The notes below the pieces were generated by a model. The model was not told the origin of the DNA, did not search any database, and worked only from the letters and a program-made list of their open reading frames with translations. From Tomocerus qinae (Eukaryota > Arthropoda > Collembola > Entomobryomorpha > Tomoceridae): a stretch of DNA of 64,000 nucleotides. The stretch covers positions 91,884,001-91,948,000 of the forward strand of contig CM034546.1 of NCBI GenBank assembly GCA_020055645.1. The letters run 5' to 3'. A program made the translations under genes and the position numbers. Below are positions 9,180-16,478 of the stretch, in pieces; positions within the stretch are counted from its first letter, which is position 1, and each line of letters begins with the position of its first letter.

Positions 9180-9579
9180 TATTAGAAGAATGCACAGTGA
9201 CATAAATAGTTTGTGCATGATGTCTTATTATTATTATTATGAAACCTTTAGCTCGGTATTGTCGAGGTTAAAGGACATTGTATCATACATTCTTATAATA
9301 CTAGTACTCCTTATAAATATCATAAAAGTTTTATTGCTGTGTTTACTAAATTCTGTTCTAGTTTCTATTTGTCAATGTACATACCTTACCCACTTTTCAT
9401 GTTACACTCAACCTTCAATATTTGTATAAATACTGCTGCTCTATGCTTGAATAAATCACTTGTTAACTTTAACCAGTCAACTTCTCTTCTCTTCACTGTT
9501 GGTACTAAAACCATCAGATTGCATACTCACTCATATGGACCAGGCGAACTAGCCCTTCGAAGAGGCAATTCATGCTTCA
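9180..9579 (+). repeat. Left (5') LTR, 400 bp
   Basis: It begins TATTAGAAG and ends CATGCTTCA. Read side by side with the right LTR it shows no difference that I could find over 400 bp. It contains a TTA microsatellite (about 9225-9240), a TATA box at 9425-9431 and an AATAAA at 9450-9455. The end is the usual CA, but the start is TA, not the canonical TG. The hydrophobic frame that runs through both LTRs is probably non-coding. Confidence 0.95.
9425..9431 (+). promoter_or_regulatory. TATA box of the 5' LTR promoter
   Basis: TATAAAT lies about 245 bp into the left LTR, with about 150 bp of LTR downstream. This is a reasonable position for the U3/R boundary, with transcription starting roughly 25-30 bp further on. 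The same motif is present in the right LTR at 16319-16325. The assignment rests on sequence and position only. Confidence 0.6.
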
Positions 9580-9594
9580 CGTTATACCAGCACA
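9580..9594 (+). other. Candidate primer-binding site (anticodon-loop, half-tRNA type)
   Basis: No TGG complementary to a tRNA 3'-CCA end follows the LTR. The bases directly after it, CGTTATACCAGCAC, resemble the reverse complement of the anticodon arm of animal initiator tRNA-Met (GTTAT then CCAGCAC), with about three bases missing between the two blocks. Drosophila copia is known to prime with a 5' half-fragment of initiator tRNA-Met that pairs with exactly this part of the molecule. The gap makes this tentative, and another tRNA, such as one with a related anticodon arm, may fit better. Confidence 0.35.
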
Positions 9595-10003
9595 AGTTCT
9601 ACCAAGCTAAGGAACCTGGCCGACTACAATTTTTTATGAGGAGCTTTTCTTTCATGTTTTAATTTTTTGTCCATTCAAATTTAGAATTTTGATACTGCGC
9701 TGTCTGGATTAAATTTTTCACCTTAGTGAAAAATTCTGCAATCACCAAGTAGGACTGGAGATACGGAGGATACTCATCAATAGCTGCTGTGGGCCGCCAG
9801 AATTTGATCGGAGGAGTCCCCCTGAATAAACTCGTCACTAGCCGCACCTGTCTGAAGGAAGTAGAAGTTGCCTTGCAGACCTGACTGGAGTTTTTGGAAA
9901 TCGTCACAGTTGTATCCTTAGAGCCTGTGGAACGGATTTCATTGGACTTATATCTCGTCTACTTTTTGCCGAATATTTTTGATTGCAGCAGGACCATTCC
10001 ATT
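9580..10003 (+). other. 5' untranslated leader of the retrotransposon
   Basis: This stretch of 424 bp lies between the 5' LTR and the first ATG of gag. Beyond the candidate primer site, no conserved protein frame is visible. The packaging signal of the element would be expected here but cannot be recognised by eye. Confidence 0.7.
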
Positions 10004-11170
10004 ATGTCGAAAGGAATTAAAATTGATTGCGGGAATATCGACAAACTCACCGGGACGAGTGATTTTCCGCTATGGAAAATCAATGTGAAGAACGTCTTCA
10101 CCGCCGCCGGCATTTACAAGGTAGTAAATGGAATGGAACCCAGACACACCACTGATGCAGATAAACAGGACGAATGGGACAAAAAGGACAGCGCGGGAAT
10201 GGCTGTCATACTACAAACCGTGGACAAGAGCGTCGTATGCCACATCTATTCGGCACTGACAAGTAATGTCATGTGGACTATTCTGGAACAGACCTTTGGA
10301 CGATCCACCGTCTGGTCACAGGAAGTACTGATCCAGAAATTTTATTCGATGCGTCTTGGAAATAAGAGCGCCGTGGAAATGATCAACGAATTACAGACCA
10401 TCTCAGGTCAATTGATAACCCTTGGATACACAGCAATTGACGAGCGAGCAGTGATCTCGCGGGCCACTTTCGAGCTACAAGGACCTAGTTACGATTCATT
10501 CGTAGCTACTTGGGATTGCTTACCATCTGCTCAGAAGAATTTGGGGAATATGATACAAATGCTCAACAAACATGAAGATAGACAGACAACTTGGCGCCAG
10601 AAGGAGGAGTCCACGTCCTCTGATCGAGCATTTTGGCAGAGAAGAGATGACCACCCCAACACGCCCCGACCAGGACAACAGAGATGGAATGATGTGGAAC
10701 CAAGGTCCAACCCTAATTGGAAGCCGTCTAATGGAAGACAACAGAAGAAGGGTAACAGGTCAGGCAGTTGCTTTGACTGTGGTGAAGAAGGACATCATAG
10801 AGGAAGTCCGGACTGTAAAAATCCCAAACCGAGGGATGACGACCGCCAACCGAATAATAATCATCAAAGGAACAACAATCAGAGGTCCAACAACCGTCCT
10901 CGGAATAATGGCAACCGTCAGAAGAACCGGAGCAACCACAGCAACCAGAAGAAGAATGACAAGCAGCCTGAAAATAAGCCAAGGAGTGCACCGTTGGAGG
11001 ACGAGGATGCAGCCTTTGGAGTCATCTTGAAAGCTTCCCAGGATGACTACTCGTCGTTTCGAGTCGCCACAAACGACGATTGGTACTGTGACAGTGGAAC
11101 GAATGTCCACCTTTGCGGCGACAAGAGTTGGTTTTCTTCATATACGGATTACAACCCCCGAGAAGTGTGA
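10004..11170 (+). CDS. gag: Gag (capsid, zinc-knuckle nucleocapsid) running into the N-terminal part of protease
   Basis: Capsid/nucleocapsid precursor of a Ty1/copia element, 388 codons from the first ATG (MSKGIKID...). Upstream codons in this frame hold no ATG. The N-terminal two thirds have the copia Gag (UBN2-type) pattern, including a DFPLWK motif near the start and an MRL/EMI helix region. A CCHC zinc knuckle lies at 10769-10816 as CX2CX4HX6C, two residues longer than usual, followed by a long Asn/Arg/Gln/Lys-rich basic tail suited to RNA binding. The frame then enters the aspartic protease, with the catalytic DSG at 11090-11098. It stops about 25 residues later at TGA 11168-11170, so the protease is only completed in the -1 frame. 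Confidence 0.93.
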   Translation: MSKGIKIDCGNIDKLTGTSDFPLWKINVKNVFTAAGIYKVVNGMEPRHTTDADKQDEWDKKDSAGMAVILQTVDKSVVCHIYSALTSNVMWTILEQTFGRSTVWSQEVLIQKFYSMRLGNKSAVEMINELQTISGQLITLGYTAIDERAVISRATFELQGPSYDSFVATWDCLPSAQKNLGNMIQMLNKHEDRQTTWRQKEESTSSDRAFWQRRDDHPNTPRPGQQRWNDVEPRSNPNWKPSNGRQQKKGNRSGSCFDCGEEGHHRGSPDCKNPKPRDDDRQPNNNHQRNNNQRSNNRPRNNGNRQKNRSNHSNQKKNDKQPENKPRSAPLEDEDAAFGVILKASQDDYSSFRVATNDDWYCDSGTNVHLCGDKSWFSSYTDYNPREV

Positions 11171-13155
11171 CCGTAGCGTCCAAACAATCCGTGATATGCC
11201 CAGGAGGAGGGACGGTGACACTAGAAGCTTTCATCTGTGGAACATGGAAGGTCATCCAATTACATGATGTAATTTACCTGCCTGGAAGTACGAACTTATT
11301 TTGCCACAGCAAAATATTGCGTAAGGGGTACACTGTGAATTCAACTCAGAAAGGAACAATTTTTAAGACCAGCCAGAACAAACGAAGCATCGAGGCTACG
11401 TTTGATGACGACGGACTACAGAGGATGGTATTCCGGAGATTGCCACGTGATAGAGCCTTCTCAGCCGTTTCTATGGGAGAAAGATGGCACGAGCGCCTTG
11501 GACATACTAACTTTGAGTTTTTGAGAAACTCAGTTACGAAGAATGCAATTAAGCTGGGAACGAATGGCAAATTGGAGAAGAAATTTAACTGCGATGTTTG
11601 CGTGAGAGCTAAGGCTCCGCTACATCCCTACCCATCCCAACCGGAAAGGAACTACCCCGTCGGAGAACTGATACACACGGATCTAGTGTATGCTGGAGGA
11701 CTAAGTAACCAAGGAAATAAATATTATTTACTCGTGAAGGAAAATACTTCTAATTTTAGGCTGGCGTATTTTCAAAGAACGAAGGATGCCTCCACAACGA
11801 CCAAGAATATGAAAGATGCGGTAAATTGGTTTACCAATAAAACCGGAGTTCCAGTGAAGATCGTCAAATCGGACCACGGTACGGAGTACGTCAACAGTCT
11901 ATGGAAAGACTTCGTGTCAGAAAAAGGGATTACACACGAATTGACGCCCGTCGGATGTTCTCAATCGAATGGAAAGGTCGAACGAGATGTGAGAACTGTA
12001 AGGAACATGGGTCGAGCGATGCTTCTGGAAGCAAATCTCAAGGAGGGATTCTGGCAGGATGCGATCGGCACTGCAGTCTTCTTGCTGAACAGGTTACTCA
12101 GCACTACGAATGGAACGAAGACGCCCCTTGAAATGATCTCCGGACAAGTCCCCAATCTTGGAAGAATAAGGATATTTGGCAGCCCTGGTAGAGCAAGAGT
12201 GCTCACCCCCTCTGGAAAGATGGCTGACCGAACACGAGCAGGGATACTCGTTGGCTATGTACCTGCATCGAGAGAATATAAACTATGGGACAAGACAACT
12301 AAACAATACTTCACCTCTCGACACGTTGTGTTCAGAGAGGACTGGATACCGTCAAGTTCTCTACCGGAGGTAGTAGCAGAACAGGAAGACGAAGACCGCA
12401 GGCCTCTGGGTTCCGCAGAGGTCGAGGAACTAGATGACGAATACGATGATGATGCCGGAGCTGAAGCAGCAGCTCGACAAGATGACGCAGCGGCAGCCCA
12501 AGGAGAAGCAGCCGCAGGTGACGCAGCAGAGGACAACGATGAAGATAATTTCTGGAGAGACTGGAACCTCAGCGAGGAGGAGGACTCCGAGACGACAGCT
12601 GATCCAGTGATAGAGGCCATTGAAGGCACTCCAGAACCTCCTGAACAACCAAAGACCGTTGTTAAACGCGTCAGGAAACCTAAAGGAGTCACTCAGCCTA
12701 CAAGGGAGATGACCAGACATACTCGAGGGGTACCACCTCCGTGGTACCAAGCGTCACACATTGTCAGCAAGAATGACCGGATCATACCAATTCCCAAGAG
12801 TTACGAAGAAGCTATGACCAGCTGGGACAAGCTGGACTGGTTGGACGCCATGCAACGGGAGATGGAGAGTCACCAGATGATAGGAACTTGGGAACTAGTT
12901 CTATGCCCCAAGAACGGGAAGATACTTAAATGCGGTTGGATTTATAAAGTCAAGAACAACCCGGGTGGAACACCGCTTTTCAAAGCCAGATTGGTTGTTA
13001 AAGGATACGCACAACGCTGGGGATCGACTTCTTCGACACCTTCTCATCAGTCATCAGAATGGAAACTTGGAGACTCATCTTTGCGATTGCCGCAATTTTC
13101 GGATGGTCAATTTTTGGATCTGATGTTAAAACAGCGTTCGTCAACAGTGAGCTAA
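11113..13155 (+). CDS. pol: Pol, first part: rest of protease, integrase, start of reverse transcriptase
   Basis: Open frame in the -1 phase relative to gag, without an ATG of its own (it opens at TTG), so it would be made as a Gag-Pol fusion. The meaningful part starts near 11155 with the second half of protease (DVIYLPG segment). Integrase follows: zinc-binding HHCC with His at 11488 and 11503 and Cys at 11590 and 11599, then catalytic Asp 11680, Asp 11872 and Glu 11980 with 35 residues between the last two (DD35E). The integrase tail carries a long Asp/Glu/Ala-rich linker (about 12376-12600). Reverse transcriptase begins near 12790 (PKSYEEAM, LVVKGYAQR). Copia similarity ends near 13020; the last 45 codons to the stop at 13155 are out-of-frame read-through. 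Confidence 0.92.
   Translation: MRRQELVFFIYGLQPPRSVTVASKQSVICPGGGTVTLEAFICGTWKVIQLHDVIYLPGSTNLFCHSKILRKGYTVNSTQKGTIFKTSQNKRSIEATFDDDGLQRMVFRRLPRDRAFSAVSMGERWHERLGHTNFEFLRNSVTKNAIKLGTNGKLEKKFNCDVCVRAKAPLHPYPSQPERNYPVGELIHTDLVYAGGLSNQGNKYYLLVKENTSNFRLAYFQRTKDASTTTKNMKDAVNWFTNKTGVPVKIVKSDHGTEYVNSLWKDFVSEKGITHELTPVGCSQSNGKVERDVRTVRNMGRAMLLEANLKEGFWQDAIGTAVFLLNRLLSTTNGTKTPLEMISGQVPNLGRIRIFGSPGRARVLTPSGKMADRTRAGILVGYVPASREYKLWDKTTKQYFTSRHVVFREDWIPSSSLPEVVAEQEDEDRRPLGSAEVEELDDEYDDDAGAEAAARQDDAAAAQGEAAAGDAAEDNDEDNFWRDWNLSEEEDSETTADPVIEAIEGTPEPPEQPKTVVKRVRKPKGVTQPTREMTRHTRGVPPPWYQASHIVSKNDRIIPIPKSYEEAMTSWDKLDWLDAMQREMESHQMIGTWELVLCPKNGKILKCGWIYKVKNNPGGTPLFKARLVVKGYAQRWGSTSSTPSHQSSEWKLGDSSLRLPQFSDGQFLDLMLKQRSSTVS
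12376..12600 (+). other. Acidic, alanine-rich linker between integrase and reverse transcriptase
   Basis: About 75 codons of mainly Glu, Asp and Ala (for example EELDDEYDDD and AAAAQGEAAAGDAAED), probably disordered. Copia integrases have variable, low-complexity C-termini here, often carrying nuclear localisation or host-factor contact sites. Basic residues (KRVRKPK) follow at about 12664-12684 and could be a nuclear import signal. That function is inferred. Confidence 0.7.
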
Positions 13156-14246
13156 TGGAGCTCATCTACATGGAACAACCACCCGGATTCGTCACCGGAG
13201 GAGGATACGTATGCAGACTAAAGAAGAGTCTGTACGGGCTCAAACAGAGTCCCAGAAATTGGCATCGTCTCATGACGGAGAAACTACTGGAACTGGGATT
13301 CGTCCAATCCCAGTACGACAACTGCTTATTCATCTATCAGGACTCCAAACATACAGTATATATGGGACTGTATGTGGACGACTTATTGCTGACTGGAAAC
13401 AAACCGGAGTTCATGGAAGATATTTTGAAGAAACTAGGAAAGCAGTTCACCATGACGACGACCAGGAGGGTTACCAAATTTCTAGGTGTGGAGGTCAATG
13501 TCACGTCAAGAGGGATCCACCTGCACCAGGAGCAGTACATATTGGACTTGATGACCCGATTTGGTATGGAGCAGTGCAAAGGAGCACAGATACCAATGAG
13601 CCCCTCACATAAATTGGATCCATGCATCGATAAGGAGGGTAACTTCCCAAATCACGACCCTCGCCTTCCATATCAACAATTAGTTGGTGCGCTATTGTTT
13701 ATTAGCCGATGCACCCGACCCGACATCGCGTTTGCTGTGGGCAAACTGTCCCGCTATTTCACCGTGTACGAAGACAAACATATGAAGGCAGCCAAGGATG
13801 TACTGAGGTGCCTGGCGCAGACAAGAACACGTGGAATTTGGTACGGAAAGGACAAGGAGATGCGGATGGAAGGATTTTCTGATGCAGATTATGCCGGCGA
13901 TCACGTACAGAGCAAATCGACGTCTGGCATTTTATATACTATAAATGGCTCACCCCTGACTTGGACCAGCAAGCGTCAAACTGTGATTGCACAGTCAACA
14001 ACGGAATCAGAGTACGTTGCCCTAGCGACCGCCAGCAAGGAGGGAATCTGGATAAGAAACTTACTATGTGAACTAAAACTTAAACCTGGGATACACCGTT
14101 CACCATCCACATGGACAGCCAGAGTGCACAACGGTTGGCACTCAATCCGAATTCCACACAAGGACGAAGCATATGTCCGTCCGCTGGCATTACATCCGAT
14201 TACTGGTAGAAACAAATCAAGTAAAAATCCAGTACACACCCACTGA
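13059..14246 (+). CDS. pol: Pol, second part: reverse transcriptase core and most of RNase H
   Basis: RNA-dependent DNA polymerase and RNase H that copy the genomic RNA into cDNA. Copia-like sequence in this frame starts a little upstream of the first ATG, near 13023, in the -1 phase relative to the integrase frame. Reverse transcriptase shows the first catalytic Asp at 13122 (SDVKTAF), the KSLYGLKQSPRNWH block and the YVDD box at 13371-13382. RNase H shows Asp 13881 (SDADYAGD) and Glu in the STTESEY motif (14004-14012). After about 14090 the frame stops matching RNase H. The third catalytic Asp is found in a different frame at 14114-14116. The last 50 or so codons to 14246 are out of frame. 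Confidence 0.92.
   Translation: METWRLIFAIAAIFGWSIFGSDVKTAFVNSELMELIYMEQPPGFVTGGGYVCRLKKSLYGLKQSPRNWHRLMTEKLLELGFVQSQYDNCLFIYQDSKHTVYMGLYVDDLLLTGNKPEFMEDILKKLGKQFTMTTTRRVTKFLGVEVNVTSRGIHLHQEQYILDLMTRFGMEQCKGAQIPMSPSHKLDPCIDKEGNFPNHDPRLPYQQLVGALLFISRCTRPDIAFAVGKLSRYFTVYEDKHMKAAKDVLRCLAQTRTRGIWYGKDKEMRMEGFSDADYAGDHVQSKSTSGILYTINGSPLTWTSKRQTVIAQSTTESEYVALATASKEGIWIRNLLCELKLKPGIHRSPSTWTARVHNGWHSIRIPHKDEAYVRPLALHPITGRNKSSKNPVHTH
14093..14148 (+). pseudogene. pol: RNase H fragment in a third frame, with the third catalytic Asp
   Basis: A stretch of about 18 codons that matches the end of copia RNase H only in the frame beginning at 14093 (mod 3 = 2). It includes the Asp of the HMDSQSAQ motif at 14114-14116. 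Upstream RNase H is in the +1 neighbour of this frame and downstream RNase H in the -1 neighbour, so two separate one-base losses (or equivalents) lie within roughly 60 bp. I infer this by comparison with the general copia RNase H motif order. Confidence 0.7.
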
Positions 14247-15114
14247 AGAATTGGTCGCTGACGCGCTGACGAAGCCACTACCGAAGATCAAGTTCGATGA
14301 AAAAGTGAAGCAGATGGACCTCAGGTTCAAGGAGGACCTGGAACTGGCGAACAATCAGTTCAAGGAGGACATCAAAAGAAGATCAGGGACCACGACACAA
14401 ACGAAGAAAGTCACCTTTAACTGTCTATCAGCACTTTTGCTGATAGGACAACTCATGTTCGCTTTATGCGACAAACTACCTACTGGAAGCCCAGTAGTTT
14501 GGCGAAAAATGGACCAGCCCGCAGTGATAGGTTTCACTAGCGTCAACCTGAAGATTAATCTGGTATCGCCCTGTAAACTACTACCACTGGAAGGACTTCC
14601 GGCTGTGACTTCTATCAAACTGAAGAGGCAATGCGAGGACCAGTACAACAAACTTTTTCTGGATGAGCTGGAAAAAGTCTGCCCTCAGAGAGATGTGTCG
14701 GACCGACAGAAGAGAGCCATATTTGCCATTATTGGCATATTACTCATTTCAGCAGTCGCAAGCGCAGGAGTAGGCATGGGAACCTACGCCGTACATCAAA
14801 CGGATCAACTAGAGGTCACGGAAGCTGAAATCGAGAGAACACTGGACGACCTGGAAGCTAAGGCTAAGATTAATAGTGAAGATATACGGATTCTTCAACA
14901 AGAGGTTAAGAAGCTTGCCTTAACCGTCAACAAACTCATCATGGACGTGAACAGCCTCACAGAAAAATCAATCGAGATGCAGTACCTCGTGTCTTACATC
15001 GTAGCAAGACTTGTCGTTGGCAGAGGAGTCATTAGCGAGATGAAAAGAAACTGGAAGAAAAAGGCTATGGACGACAGCTTTTTCGAATTCATCAACTTCA
15101 CCCCTGCCTTGTGA
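14143..15114 (+). CDS. env: RNase H C-terminus continuing in frame into an envelope-like fusion protein (F2-like subunit, cleavage site, fusion peptide, coiled coil)
   Basis: The frame first carries the end of RNase H (EFHTRTKH, RWHYIR, then YTPTEELVADALTKPL to about 14280). With no stop it reads through a charged linker into a hydrophobic signal-peptide-like segment at about 14413-14466 (LSALLLIGQLMFALC). Next come about 80 residues with three Cys, a furin-type RQKR at 14704-14715, and a Gly/Ala/Ile-rich hydrophobic segment at 14716-14800 that would be the fusion peptide. A long heptad-patterned helix follows at about 14815-14970. This order is that of class I viral fusion proteins with a short N-terminal subunit (paramyxovirus or baculovirus F and errantivirus Env). 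The family match is architectural; I cannot assign a closest relative. The frame ends at TGA 15112-15114, inside the ectodomain. Confidence 0.85.
   Translation, partial: QSEFHTRTKHMSVRWHYIRLLVETNQVKIQYTPTEELVADALTKPLPKIKFDEKVKQMDLRFKEDLELANNQFKEDIKRRSGTTTQTKKVTFNCLSALLLIGQLMFALCDKLPTGSPVVWRKMDQPAVIGFTSVNLKINLVSPCKLLPLEGLPAVTSIKLKRQCEDQYNKLFLDELEKVCPQRDVSDRQKRAIFAIIGILLISAVASAGVGMGTYAVHQTDQLEVTEAEIERTLDDLEAKAKINSEDIRILQQEVKKLALTVNKLIMDVNSLTEKSIEMQYLVSYIVARLVVGRGVISEMKRNWKKKAMDDSFFEFINFTPAL
14704..14800 (+). other. Furin-type cleavage site and fusion-peptide-like segment
   Basis: RQKR at 14704-14715 fits the R-X-K/R-R rule of furin-like proteases. It is followed at once by a hydrophobic run with a Gly/Ala pattern (AIFAIIGILL, then ASAGVGMG). 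A cleavable basic site directly before a hydrophobic N-terminus, then a coiled coil, is the hallmark of class I fusion glycoproteins. Function is inferred. Confidence 0.8.
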
Positions 15115-15325
15115 GCCTGATTGTCCACTGGAATATGGAGAGTCTAAAGATTGTTACCTAGACTCTAAGAAGCAGTCACTCTACATGAAATTTACAGTAC
15201 CCATTGTAAATGACAACCTAACAGTCGTGGAAGCAGACCCGTTCACCCTGATGGTCAAGGAAAAAGGAAAGACTTGCAGAGTCTCATATTTTGGACCCTT
15301 TGAACGCGATGGTCTCCATCACTGA
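15098..15325 (+). pseudogene. env: Envelope-like ectodomain, middle fragment in a second frame
   Basis: The frame one base ahead of the previous segment is open here and reads as a cysteine-rich ectodomain: Cys at the CEPDC motif (about 15110-15124), another in KDCY, an NLT glycosylation sequon and a TC pair near 15272. It stops at TGA 15323-15325. Composition (balanced, less AT-rich, Cys and sequons) fits the flanking envelope segments and not the host DNA. The join to the upstream frame lies between about 15085 and 15112. Confidence 0.65.
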
Positions 15326-15506
15326 GGACTGCGTGTATGCTGTTGACATGGGGAACGCCACATCGGAAAAGGATTTTATACGCCCCTGTTCGAAATTGTC
15401 AGAAGCAGGAAAGCCTGACAGATGTCAACAAAGTATACCGAATTACGGACTGCAAAATAAGCATATTAGGAGACGAGACGGAATTTGTTCAAGTGAAAGC
15501 TTATAA
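15291..15506 (+). pseudogene. env: Envelope-like ectodomain, third-frame fragment
   Basis: This frame opens at TTG, not ATG. The plausible envelope part is about 15291-15410, with a CVYAVDMGNATS segment holding an N-glycosylation sequon, and Cys residues near 15334 and 15386. After about 15410 the neighbouring frame is the better match, so the tail to 15506 is read-through. Boundaries on both sides are approximate. Confidence 0.55.
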
Positions 15507-16035
15507 CAATAAGTACTACATTTACTGCCCAGGACTACAGTACAAACTCGGAGAAACACGTGTGGTAGATTGCCCGAGTAAAGTCTTCACTCTTCCGCTC
15601 ACAGCGACCTTTTCGCTGAACAACGTCACCTACCAAGGAAAAATGCTGAATCTCGTTTACAACGAGAAGGAGGACCCACTCTACGTGGAGAAGCTGGAAT
15701 GGCATCTGACGCCTCAGGTCAATTGGGACGAGTTAAACAAAACGTTCCCTGTGTTGGACACTCTGGATCCCAATCACTGGAATCAACACCAGGACGGACA
15801 CCTGATTAGTATCTATACGATACTACTTACCAGCTTGGCTATAATTGGAGCCGTGTATACCTACAGATGCATTAAGAAATGTAAATGCATTAAGAAGAAC
15901 AGAAGGCCGCATAAGAAGTCTCGGAAGACTGGAAAGAGCAGCAGTTCACCGCCCCAGGAAGTGCAACTGGATGAACTTCACGAATTGAAGGAATCAGCAC
16001 ATTGCAGCTCTAGCGAGGAGACTATCAATGGATGA
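15337..16035 (+). CDS. env: Envelope-like C-terminal part: ectodomain end, membrane anchor, basic cytoplasmic tail
   Basis: Real similarity to an envelope ectodomain begins about 15410 in this frame; the nominal ATG at 15337 is probably irrelevant. Seen in order: Cys-containing ectodomain (ITDCKISIL, YYIYCPG, VVDCPSK), NVT and NKT sequons, and one transmembrane helix at about 15802-15867 (ISIYTILLTSLAIIGAVYTY). Then comes a tail of about 57 residues that starts with a Cys/Lys cluster (CIKKCKCIKK), suited to palmitoylation, and runs into basic, then Ser- and Glu-rich sequence. A single C-terminal anchor with a short tail matches a type I membrane glycoprotein. The stop at 16033-16035 lies about 30 bp before the polypurine tract, so this is the last gene of the element. 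Confidence 0.85.
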   Translation: MLLTWGTPHRKRILYAPVRNCQKQESLTDVNKVYRITDCKISILGDETEFVQVKAYNNKYYIYCPGLQYKLGETRVVDCPSKVFTLPLTATFSLNNVTYQGKMLNLVYNEKEDPLYVEKLEWHLTPQVNWDELNKTFPVLDTLDPNHWNQHQDGHLISIYTILLTSLAIIGAVYTYRCIKKCKCIKKNRRPHKKSRKTGKSSSSPPQEVQLDELHELKESAHCSSSEETING

Positions 16036-16064
16036 TTACTACATGCGAGCGTCAAGGATTTCAT

Positions 16065-16073
16065 AAAGGAGGA
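16065..16073 (+). other. Polypurine tract (plus-strand primer)
   Basis: The nine purines AAAGGAGGA directly abut the right LTR start. Position and composition are those of the RNase H-resistant primer for plus-strand DNA synthesis in LTR elements. Confidence 0.85.
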
Positions 16074-16473
16074 TATTAGAAGAATGCACAGTGACATAAA
16101 TAGTTTGTGCATGATGTCTTATTATTATTATTATGAAACCTTTAGCTCGGTATTGTCGAGGTTAAAGGACATTGTATCATACATTCTTATAATACTAGTA
16201 CTCCTTATAAATATCATAAAAGTTTTATTGCTGTGTTTACTAAATTCTGTTCTAGTTTCTATTTGTCAATGTACATACCTTACCCACTTTTCATGTTACA
16301 CTCAACCTTCAATATTTGTATAAATACTGCTGCTCTATGCTTGAATAAATCACTTGTTAACTTTAACCAGTCAACTTCTCTTCTCTTCACTGTTGGTACT
16401 AAAACCATCAGATTGCATACTCACTCATATGGACCAGGCGAACTAGCCCTTCGAAGAGGCAATTCATGCTTCA
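16074..16473 (+). repeat. Right (3') LTR, 400 bp
   Basis: Begins TATTAGAAG and ends CATGCTTCA. By eye it is identical to the left LTR over its whole length, which means integration was recent or the pair was homogenised. It also holds a TATAAAT at 16319-16325 and the AATAAA listed below. Confidence 0.95.
16344..16349 (+). terminator. Polyadenylation signal in the 3' LTR
   Basis: AATAAA lies 25 bp after the LTR TATA box start. In the 3' LTR it would direct 3'-end formation of the element's RNA. In the 5' LTR the same hexamer (9450-9455) falls close to the expected transcription start. Confidence 0.6.
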
Positions 16474-16478
16474 ATAGT
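16474..16478. repeat. Target-site duplication, right copy (ATAGT)
   Basis: Perfect copy of the bases before the left LTR; see the left copy at 9175-9179. Confidence 0.92.

Follow-up and report, generated by a model that had tools for sequence, protein, structure and literature searches.

A springtail Ty1/copia lineage with a putative F-type envelope glycoprotein at the end of its polyprotein

The stretch of DNA analysed here, referred to as the window, comprises 64,000 nucleotides of the springtail Tomocerus qinae (contig CM034546.1, positions 91,884,001 to 91,948,000 of the forward strand) and contains a Ty1/copia retroelement with long terminal repeats (LTRs), the last part of which encodes a putative envelope glycoprotein (Env). 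The preferred reading, with a probability of roughly 0.8, is that a springtail copia lineage captured an F-type class I fusogen once, long ago, and has kept it as the C-terminus of its polyprotein. The computed results are the copia core, the LTRs and target duplications, the fixed place of env in most copies, its single frame with pol (at 11 loci with gag and pol), the co-divergence of Env with the reverse transcriptase (RT), the constraint on env and an F-like predicted fold.

Element and envelope region in the window

The element occupies positions 9180–16473 on the forward strand (7,294 bp). It possesses the LTRs, the polypurine tract and the 5-bp target duplication characteristic of Ty1/copia elements; the two 400-bp LTRs are identical at 400 of 400 bases, and the duplicated ATAGT flanks the element, with the 3′ member at 16474–16478. 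The Pfam domains are arranged in the order PF14223, PF13976, PF00665, PF25597 and PF07727, corresponding to gag, pre-integrase, integrase, SH3 and RVT_2 (E-values of 2e-10 for rve and 5e-16 for SH3; those of gag, 9.4e-17, and RVT_2, 6.4e-49, recur in Table 1). This order bears out the copia pol named by the original prediction, which had been made from the sequence of the window; the backbone is unmistakably that of Ty1/copia (Pseudoviridae), with an RVT_2-type RT behind the integrase and a copia-type gag. In Ty3/gypsy errantiviruses (Metaviridae), RT precedes integrase; such an order, with a gypsy-type RT, was not found in the window element, where the integrase precedes RVT_2.

Env takes up the last ~1.6 kb of the element, from ~14308 to 16035, downstream of RNase H. 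In the window copy this region is broken into three overlapping frames (~14308–15111, 15044–15322 and 15304–16032), and the three pieces were searched separately; gag–pol is broken as well, with several frame breaks, and env has two. The frame of the pol C-terminus (VKIQYTPTEELVADALTKPLP) enters env without a stop, both in the window and in relatives, and env does not begin as a separate gene: it is an in-frame continuation of pol. The original prediction had correctly placed env downstream of pol and before the polypurine tract, and had missed the in-frame fusion to pol and, often, to gag. The anatomy that it described, namely a signal-like segment, RQKR, a Gly/Ala segment, a coiled coil, cysteines with sequons, a membrane helix and a basic tail, was found in full at the predicted places. 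Three sequons are present in the two large env pieces examined, and the basic tail and the stop (16035) come before the polypurine tract and the 3′ LTR.

Querying 5.8 billion proteins with the Env N-terminal piece returned five matches (E-values from 1.2e-31 to 2.0e-80, 50–59% identity), and a chance cluster of motifs is ruled out by these strong homologues. A profile built from them finds 19 proteins, the five included, among them P0007 of Folsomia candida and P0009 of Allacma fusca. The metagenome protein P0006 carries RVT_2 and Env on one natural chain; as it does in the window, Env continues the frame of the pol C-terminus in P0001, P0003 and P0006. Most of the relatives are metagenome proteins, and the hosts named for env-bearing relatives are all Collembola (F. 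candida, A. fusca and Orchesella dallaii), which agrees with the animal lineage proposed earlier. The homologous column reads [RK]-x-[KR]-R in eight of nine covering rows of alignment A3. In alignment A4 a furin-type site is present in 11 of 13 covering rows, distant host-genome subfamilies included, the exceptions being GKKR and RLPR. The coiled coil, cysteines and membrane helix also align across the Env family. No Pfam family is above the cut-off for the env pieces of the window or for the Env part of the scanned relatives, and domain-based annotation would therefore overlook Env.

Copies in the host genome

The assembly searched has 334,443,149 bp, with the window on its 140-Mb contig; the counts are lower bounds, the Env search having scored 76 of 128 candidates. 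At least 80 RVT_2 matches cluster into 68 copia RT loci, window included, and a search with P0003 gives at least 78 Env matches. Env lies within 3 kb downstream on the same strand, 639–1322 nt away, at 60 of the 68 RT loci. The best identity to P0003 is at least 49% at 13 loci (near the window subfamily), 40–48% at 17 and below 40% at 30. An insert specific to the window copy is ruled out by these numbers; the original prediction had named sister copies without the region, or with another insert there, as its refutation, and the sister copies carry the same region. RT and Env share an open frame at 24 loci; at 11 loci a gag match has the same frame length as RT and Env, 1,780–1,995 codons, when compared by eye. 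The frame holding env stops about 20–40 nt before the 3′ LTR in the window, L019–L021, L024 and L026; in L018 the distance is about 130 nt. Elsewhere in the genome, matches to copia-type gag in open frames of about 500–600 codons have no copia RT match listed nearby (C2:19712726, C5:12435914, C1:99312990, C4:10626702 and others) and are possibly gag-only genes or non-autonomous elements.

For a closer comparison, 27 loci were fetched, the first 20 and the last seven of the 67 score-ordered RT loci besides the window. The LTR pairs of 21 are 99.5–100% identical, two more loci form a tandem and four have no clear pair. The tandem (L014 and L015, C5:15744135-15760193) is arranged head to tail, about 6.06 kb apart, with a long identical overlap, as expected for elements sharing an LTR. 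A matching 5-bp flank is present in 13 of the 14 elements with printed ends, including that of the window, and is absent at L024. The near-identical LTRs and the 5-bp duplications indicate that the insertions are recent.

Thirteen copies of one subfamily, each compared with L021, show 97 indels and 76 substitutions. Of the indels, 83 involve a single base; homopolymer runs of at least four, with 7% of the bases, contain 53 of these single-base indels. The window copy differs from its sister L028 by 14 substitutions and 17 indels, eight of the indels being in runs of at least four. This pattern seems to fit long-read assembly error better than decay, and some of the frame breaks in the window copy may be artefacts. 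Polishing of recent repeats is probably insufficient in this assembly; many of the copies, young as they are, have broken frames, and such frames in this host genome need careful reading. The many homopolymer indels might be thought to favour an assembly chimera or contamination; the probability of this is virtually negligible, given that several large contigs hold copies by the dozen, each with its own flanks and duplication, and that other springtail records and metagenomes contain relatives. This explanation is refuted by the independent species in which relatives occur.

Among close env copies, L010 and L018 give a synonymous rate (dS) of 0.041 and a non-synonymous rate (dN) of 0.004, with a ratio of 0.09; dN/dS is 0.13 for L010/L029 and 0.26 for L018/L029 (very few changes), all these values coming from near-identical copies. 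For L010/L024, synonymous change is saturated (pS 0.80), with pN 0.16. These figures suggest that close env copies are under purifying selection and that Env is kept as a protein.

Capture, fold and possible donor of Env

The RT search was made with P0006, and the best 120 of 6,061 matches were used. Besides P0006, an Env domain follows RNase H in 13 of the 119 relatives, including two from O. dallaii and two from A. fusca; the named env-less relatives include plants, a brown alga and a pseudoscorpion. In an RT tree of 127 rows (119 from the database and eight from the host genome), a single clade of 26 rows (SH-aLRT 99) contains every one of the 22 env-bearing rows. The four env-less rows of this clade stop 0, 41, 44 and 74 residues past the RNase H match and look truncated; P0030 ends inside RNase H, and P0053 and P0028 show, by eye, a hydrophobic stretch resembling the start of Env. 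As labelled, the tree has five state changes; well-supported branches force no fewer than four. The pairwise identities of RT and Env in seven single-frame representatives (L010, L024, L026, L027, L029, L032 and P0006) correlate with r 0.967, a value reached by one of 5040 permutations; without L029, a near-duplicate of L010, the correlation is 0.92 (two of 720 permutations). The tree and the co-divergence support a single capture of env, subsequently inherited with pol; an independent capture had been supposed by the original prediction. For the retrovirus-like lineage that it also proposed, the env capture is supported and infectivity is inferred.

Both the predicted structures and the sequence profile of Env match paramyxo-/pneumovirus F, in line with the class I F-like glycoprotein proposed earlier. 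In sequence and in model, a furin-type site is followed by a fusion peptide, a long coiled coil and a C-terminal anchor, and the predicted structure has the F ectodomain fold. The sequence profile pairs the cleavage site, fusion peptide and heptad-repeat A (HRA) with those of F, and metapneumovirus F ranks first among PDB sequences; F is found by many-row profiles only, single env pieces of the window giving weak, mostly helical or coiled-coil matches or none against PDB sequences. The Fusion_gly family, PF00523, is below the cut-off in two of 23 scanned members (best E 0.0024) and, in a second scan, in one of eight proteins (P0047, 15.3 bits vs a cut-off of 29.8); being below the cut-off, Env is F-like and not filed in that family. 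Model and sequence thus support the assignment of Env to class I F-like fusion glycoproteins.

The virus-side comparison for the donor covered Pfam, PDB and BFVD and narrows it to F-type fusogens only. In BFVD, baculovirus F takes ranks 1 and 2 for the first Env model and rank 2 for the second; proteins of baculoviruses, herpesviruses, arliviruses and paramyxoviruses are interspersed, their E-values differing by a few orders of magnitude, and the fold therefore does not decide the donor. A baculovirus or errantivirus source (F of the DNA-virus branch), instead of a paramyxo-, pneumo- or lispivirus-like RNA virus, is rather unlikely: the BFVD ranks favour it, as does the established kinship of errantivirus Env with baculovirus F (PMC12992720), whereas the sequence profile puts metapneumovirus F first (a point weakened by the unchecked presence of baculovirus F among PDB sequences) and PF00523 is the sole F family among the Pfam families listed. 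PF12259, the baculovirus F family, is absent among those listed (25 of 80 families in the 23-protein scan). Scanning viral contigs for the pattern of the Env alignment gave 336 hits, with no relative among them.

Several results weigh against the preferred reading. The RT tree was obtained by a quick search, has no bootstrap and was rooted on a single plant sequence, and the dN/dS values rest on few changes. Genome-wide matching finds no env at eight of the 68 RT loci; three of the eight were checked by tblastn, which finds env at L031 and L034 and none at L035, a short RT fragment. Conversely, 11 of the 78 Env matches, at 10 places, are more than 3 kb from any scored copia RT. Lastly, the location of Env in one frame with Gag–Pol is unusual for an entry protein.

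The places without scored RT include C1:67045024 and C1:65013268, two being in open frames of more than 1,000 codons; they could be elements with an unscored RT or another backbone carrying the same Env. Together with the lack of a Pfam family above the cut-off, the ten places would fit a membrane gene acquired from the host, or a neighbouring insert unrelated to the element. This is very improbable and largely refuted, since env has a constant position in most copies, continues the pol frame, lies inside the LTRs of the fetched copies and beside copia RT in other species, and has an F-like predicted fold.

The shared frame, for its part, fits a captured F-type glycoprotein that is no longer an entry protein and acts intracellularly, anchoring Gag–Pol to membranes, or in transfer directly from cell to cell, as with the short transmembrane protein of certain Drosophila elements, the element being non-infectious. 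A different transmembrane protein has been proposed to carry env-less retrotransposons between cells (PMC11952523, preprint). Such a role is improbable in view of the cleavage site and hydrophobic stretch kept in the same 11 covering rows, even in subfamilies about 30% identical to P0003, and of the family-wide alignment of the coiled coil, cysteines and membrane helix.

Features of the window element are collected in Table 1. The start of the internal region differs between the subfamilies L009–L022, L024, L025/L026 and that of the window; the starts are TGGTGTCAG..., TGGTAGCA... and the non-TGG CACAAG... and CGTTATACC..., the last being that of the window subfamily. Primer-site starts of the TGG... 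type occur in several other subfamilies, the window subfamily being non-TGG, and no tRNA was matched to any of them; the differing starts suggest different primers.

Table 1. Features of the copia element in the window.
Feature	Position	Strand	Basis
5′ LTR, 400 bp	9180..9579	+	Identical to 16074–16473; ATAGT precedes
Internal-region start, expected place of primer-binding site	9580..9603	+	Begins CGTTATACC...; no primer assigned in window subfamily
Gag and start of protease region (ORF piece 1)	9983..11170	+	PF14223 9.4e-17, Pol_BBD 2.4e-5, zinc knuckle weak
Integrase, SH3, RT start (ORF piece 2)	11092..13155	+	PF13976, PF00665, PF25597, N-terminal RVT_2
RT and RNase H (ORF piece 3)	13002..14246	+	PF07727 E 6.4e-49; natural frame shifts near piece end
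RNase H C-terminus, linker and Env N-terminal half, one frame	14077..15114	+	50–59% identity to five Env homologues
Hydrophobic signal-like segment of Env	14410..14466	+	Kyte-Doolittle 1.91, 19 residues; comparable cores in relatives
RQKR furin-type site	14704..14715	+	Sequence; aligned column in relatives
Fusion-peptide-like hydrophobic Gly/Ala segment	14716..14793	+	Kyte-Doolittle 2.52 (over 14716–14772), right behind RQKR; profile pairs it with F
HRA coiled coil	14797..15010	+	Helix 200–258 at homologous place in P0003 model; aligned with F HRA
Env middle piece, other frame	15044..15325	+	44% identity to Env part of P0006
Env C-terminal piece: Cys-rich ectodomain, membrane helix, basic tail, stop	15304..16035	+	49–50% identity to homologues
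Transmembrane helix	15802..15858	+	Kyte-Doolittle 2.08
Polypurine tract AAAGGAGGA	16065..16073	+	Read from sequence; abuts 3′ LTR
3′ LTR, 400 bp	16074..16473	+	LTR comparison; ATAGT after

Proposed mechanism and comparison with known systems

If the captured F-type protein is still a fusogen, the internal signal sequence would direct Env into the endoplasmic reticulum and signal peptidase would release it from Gag–Pol; mature Env would begin near the PVLWR motif common to many rows, after the hydrophobic signal. Cleavage by furin at R-x-K-R would expose the fusion peptide, the heptad repeats completing the class I machinery, and membranes would be fused by Env trimers carried on budded particles or exposed by the donor cell. 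By analogy with insect endogenous retroviruses (PMC12992720), the element may pass between cells, for example into the germ line from somatic tissue, and now and then from one animal to another. The same product could come from a spliced env messenger. The hydrophobic signal lies 37–113 residues past the motif or frame start from which it was counted, the automatic choice being wrong for P0029, P0047 and P0059. P0033 and P0040 have no Met ahead of the signal within the linker, which points to polyprotein translation or a start codon supplied by splicing. A simple scan for splice acceptors found one acceptor-like site in the window (11 of 15 pyrimidines) and sites in two of four other loci, at no shared place.

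Envelope capture is regarded as the step by which a retrovirus arises from an LTR retrotransposon, and the documented animal cases are gypsy-type elements and a small number of other LTR groups. A copia element with a recognisable fusogen, kept through deep divergence and found in very young insertions, provides an independent replicate of this transition, and a copia group thought to be intracellular has probably become virus-like in animals. The chances are about even that Ty1/copia is a third animal LTR superfamily with retroviruses of its own, represented by an old, recently active springtail lineage with a continuous polyprotein of Gag, Pol and F-type Env, in which an internal signal sequence parts cytosolic Gag–Pol from the membrane glycoprotein. 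How the terminal part of a cytosolic polyprotein can become a membrane protein is a question posed directly by the single gag–pol–env frame, and the findings hint that soil arthropods harbour a source of virus-like particles that would escape annotation based on domains.

A literature search on envelope and copia/LTR elements, confined mostly to best-ranked matches and with most subscription papers outside it, found no animal copia with a recognisable Env; the main text of a paper on crustacean copia (PMC3587641) does not contain env or envelope as whole words. What is new in the springtail element is the backbone, the host group and the gene arrangement. In Drosophila copia, gag–pol is a single open frame, with no env; the single frame is shared, and that of the springtail element extends through env. 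Anakin elements have a BEL/Pao backbone and a different class of glycoprotein, differing in both from the springtail element. The likeness lies in an LTR retrotransposon with an envelope from an RNA virus, described for Anakin as a chuvirus envelope (PMC12440569). Sireviruses (SIRE1), described as plant Ty1/copia elements often possessing an envelope-like gene (PMC3599292), share the copia backbone; whether their frames truly encode an envelope is said to be unclear (PMC5408684). Going by these descriptions, sireviruses differ in being plant-specific, while the F fold and the cleavage anatomy are recognisable in the springtail Env.

In the bdelloid rotifer element TelKA, ORF3 encodes an Env of about 600 aa that resembles paramyxovirus F most closely and has a furin site, fusion peptide, coiled coil and anchor (PMC5408684). 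TelKA is likewise a retrovirus-like LTR element with an F glycoprotein; however, the similarity of its Env to F is strong, and that of the springtail copia Env is far weaker. Errantiviruses and insect endogenous retroviruses are described as arthropod LTR elements with an F-type class I glycoprotein, a furin site and a fusion peptide (PMC12992720). The errantiviruses gypsy, ZAM and idefix resemble the springtail element as arthropod LTR elements that gained an F-type class I fusogen; in errantiviruses env is a third frame, whereas the springtail element is a copia with env fused to pol and, at 11 loci, also to gag.
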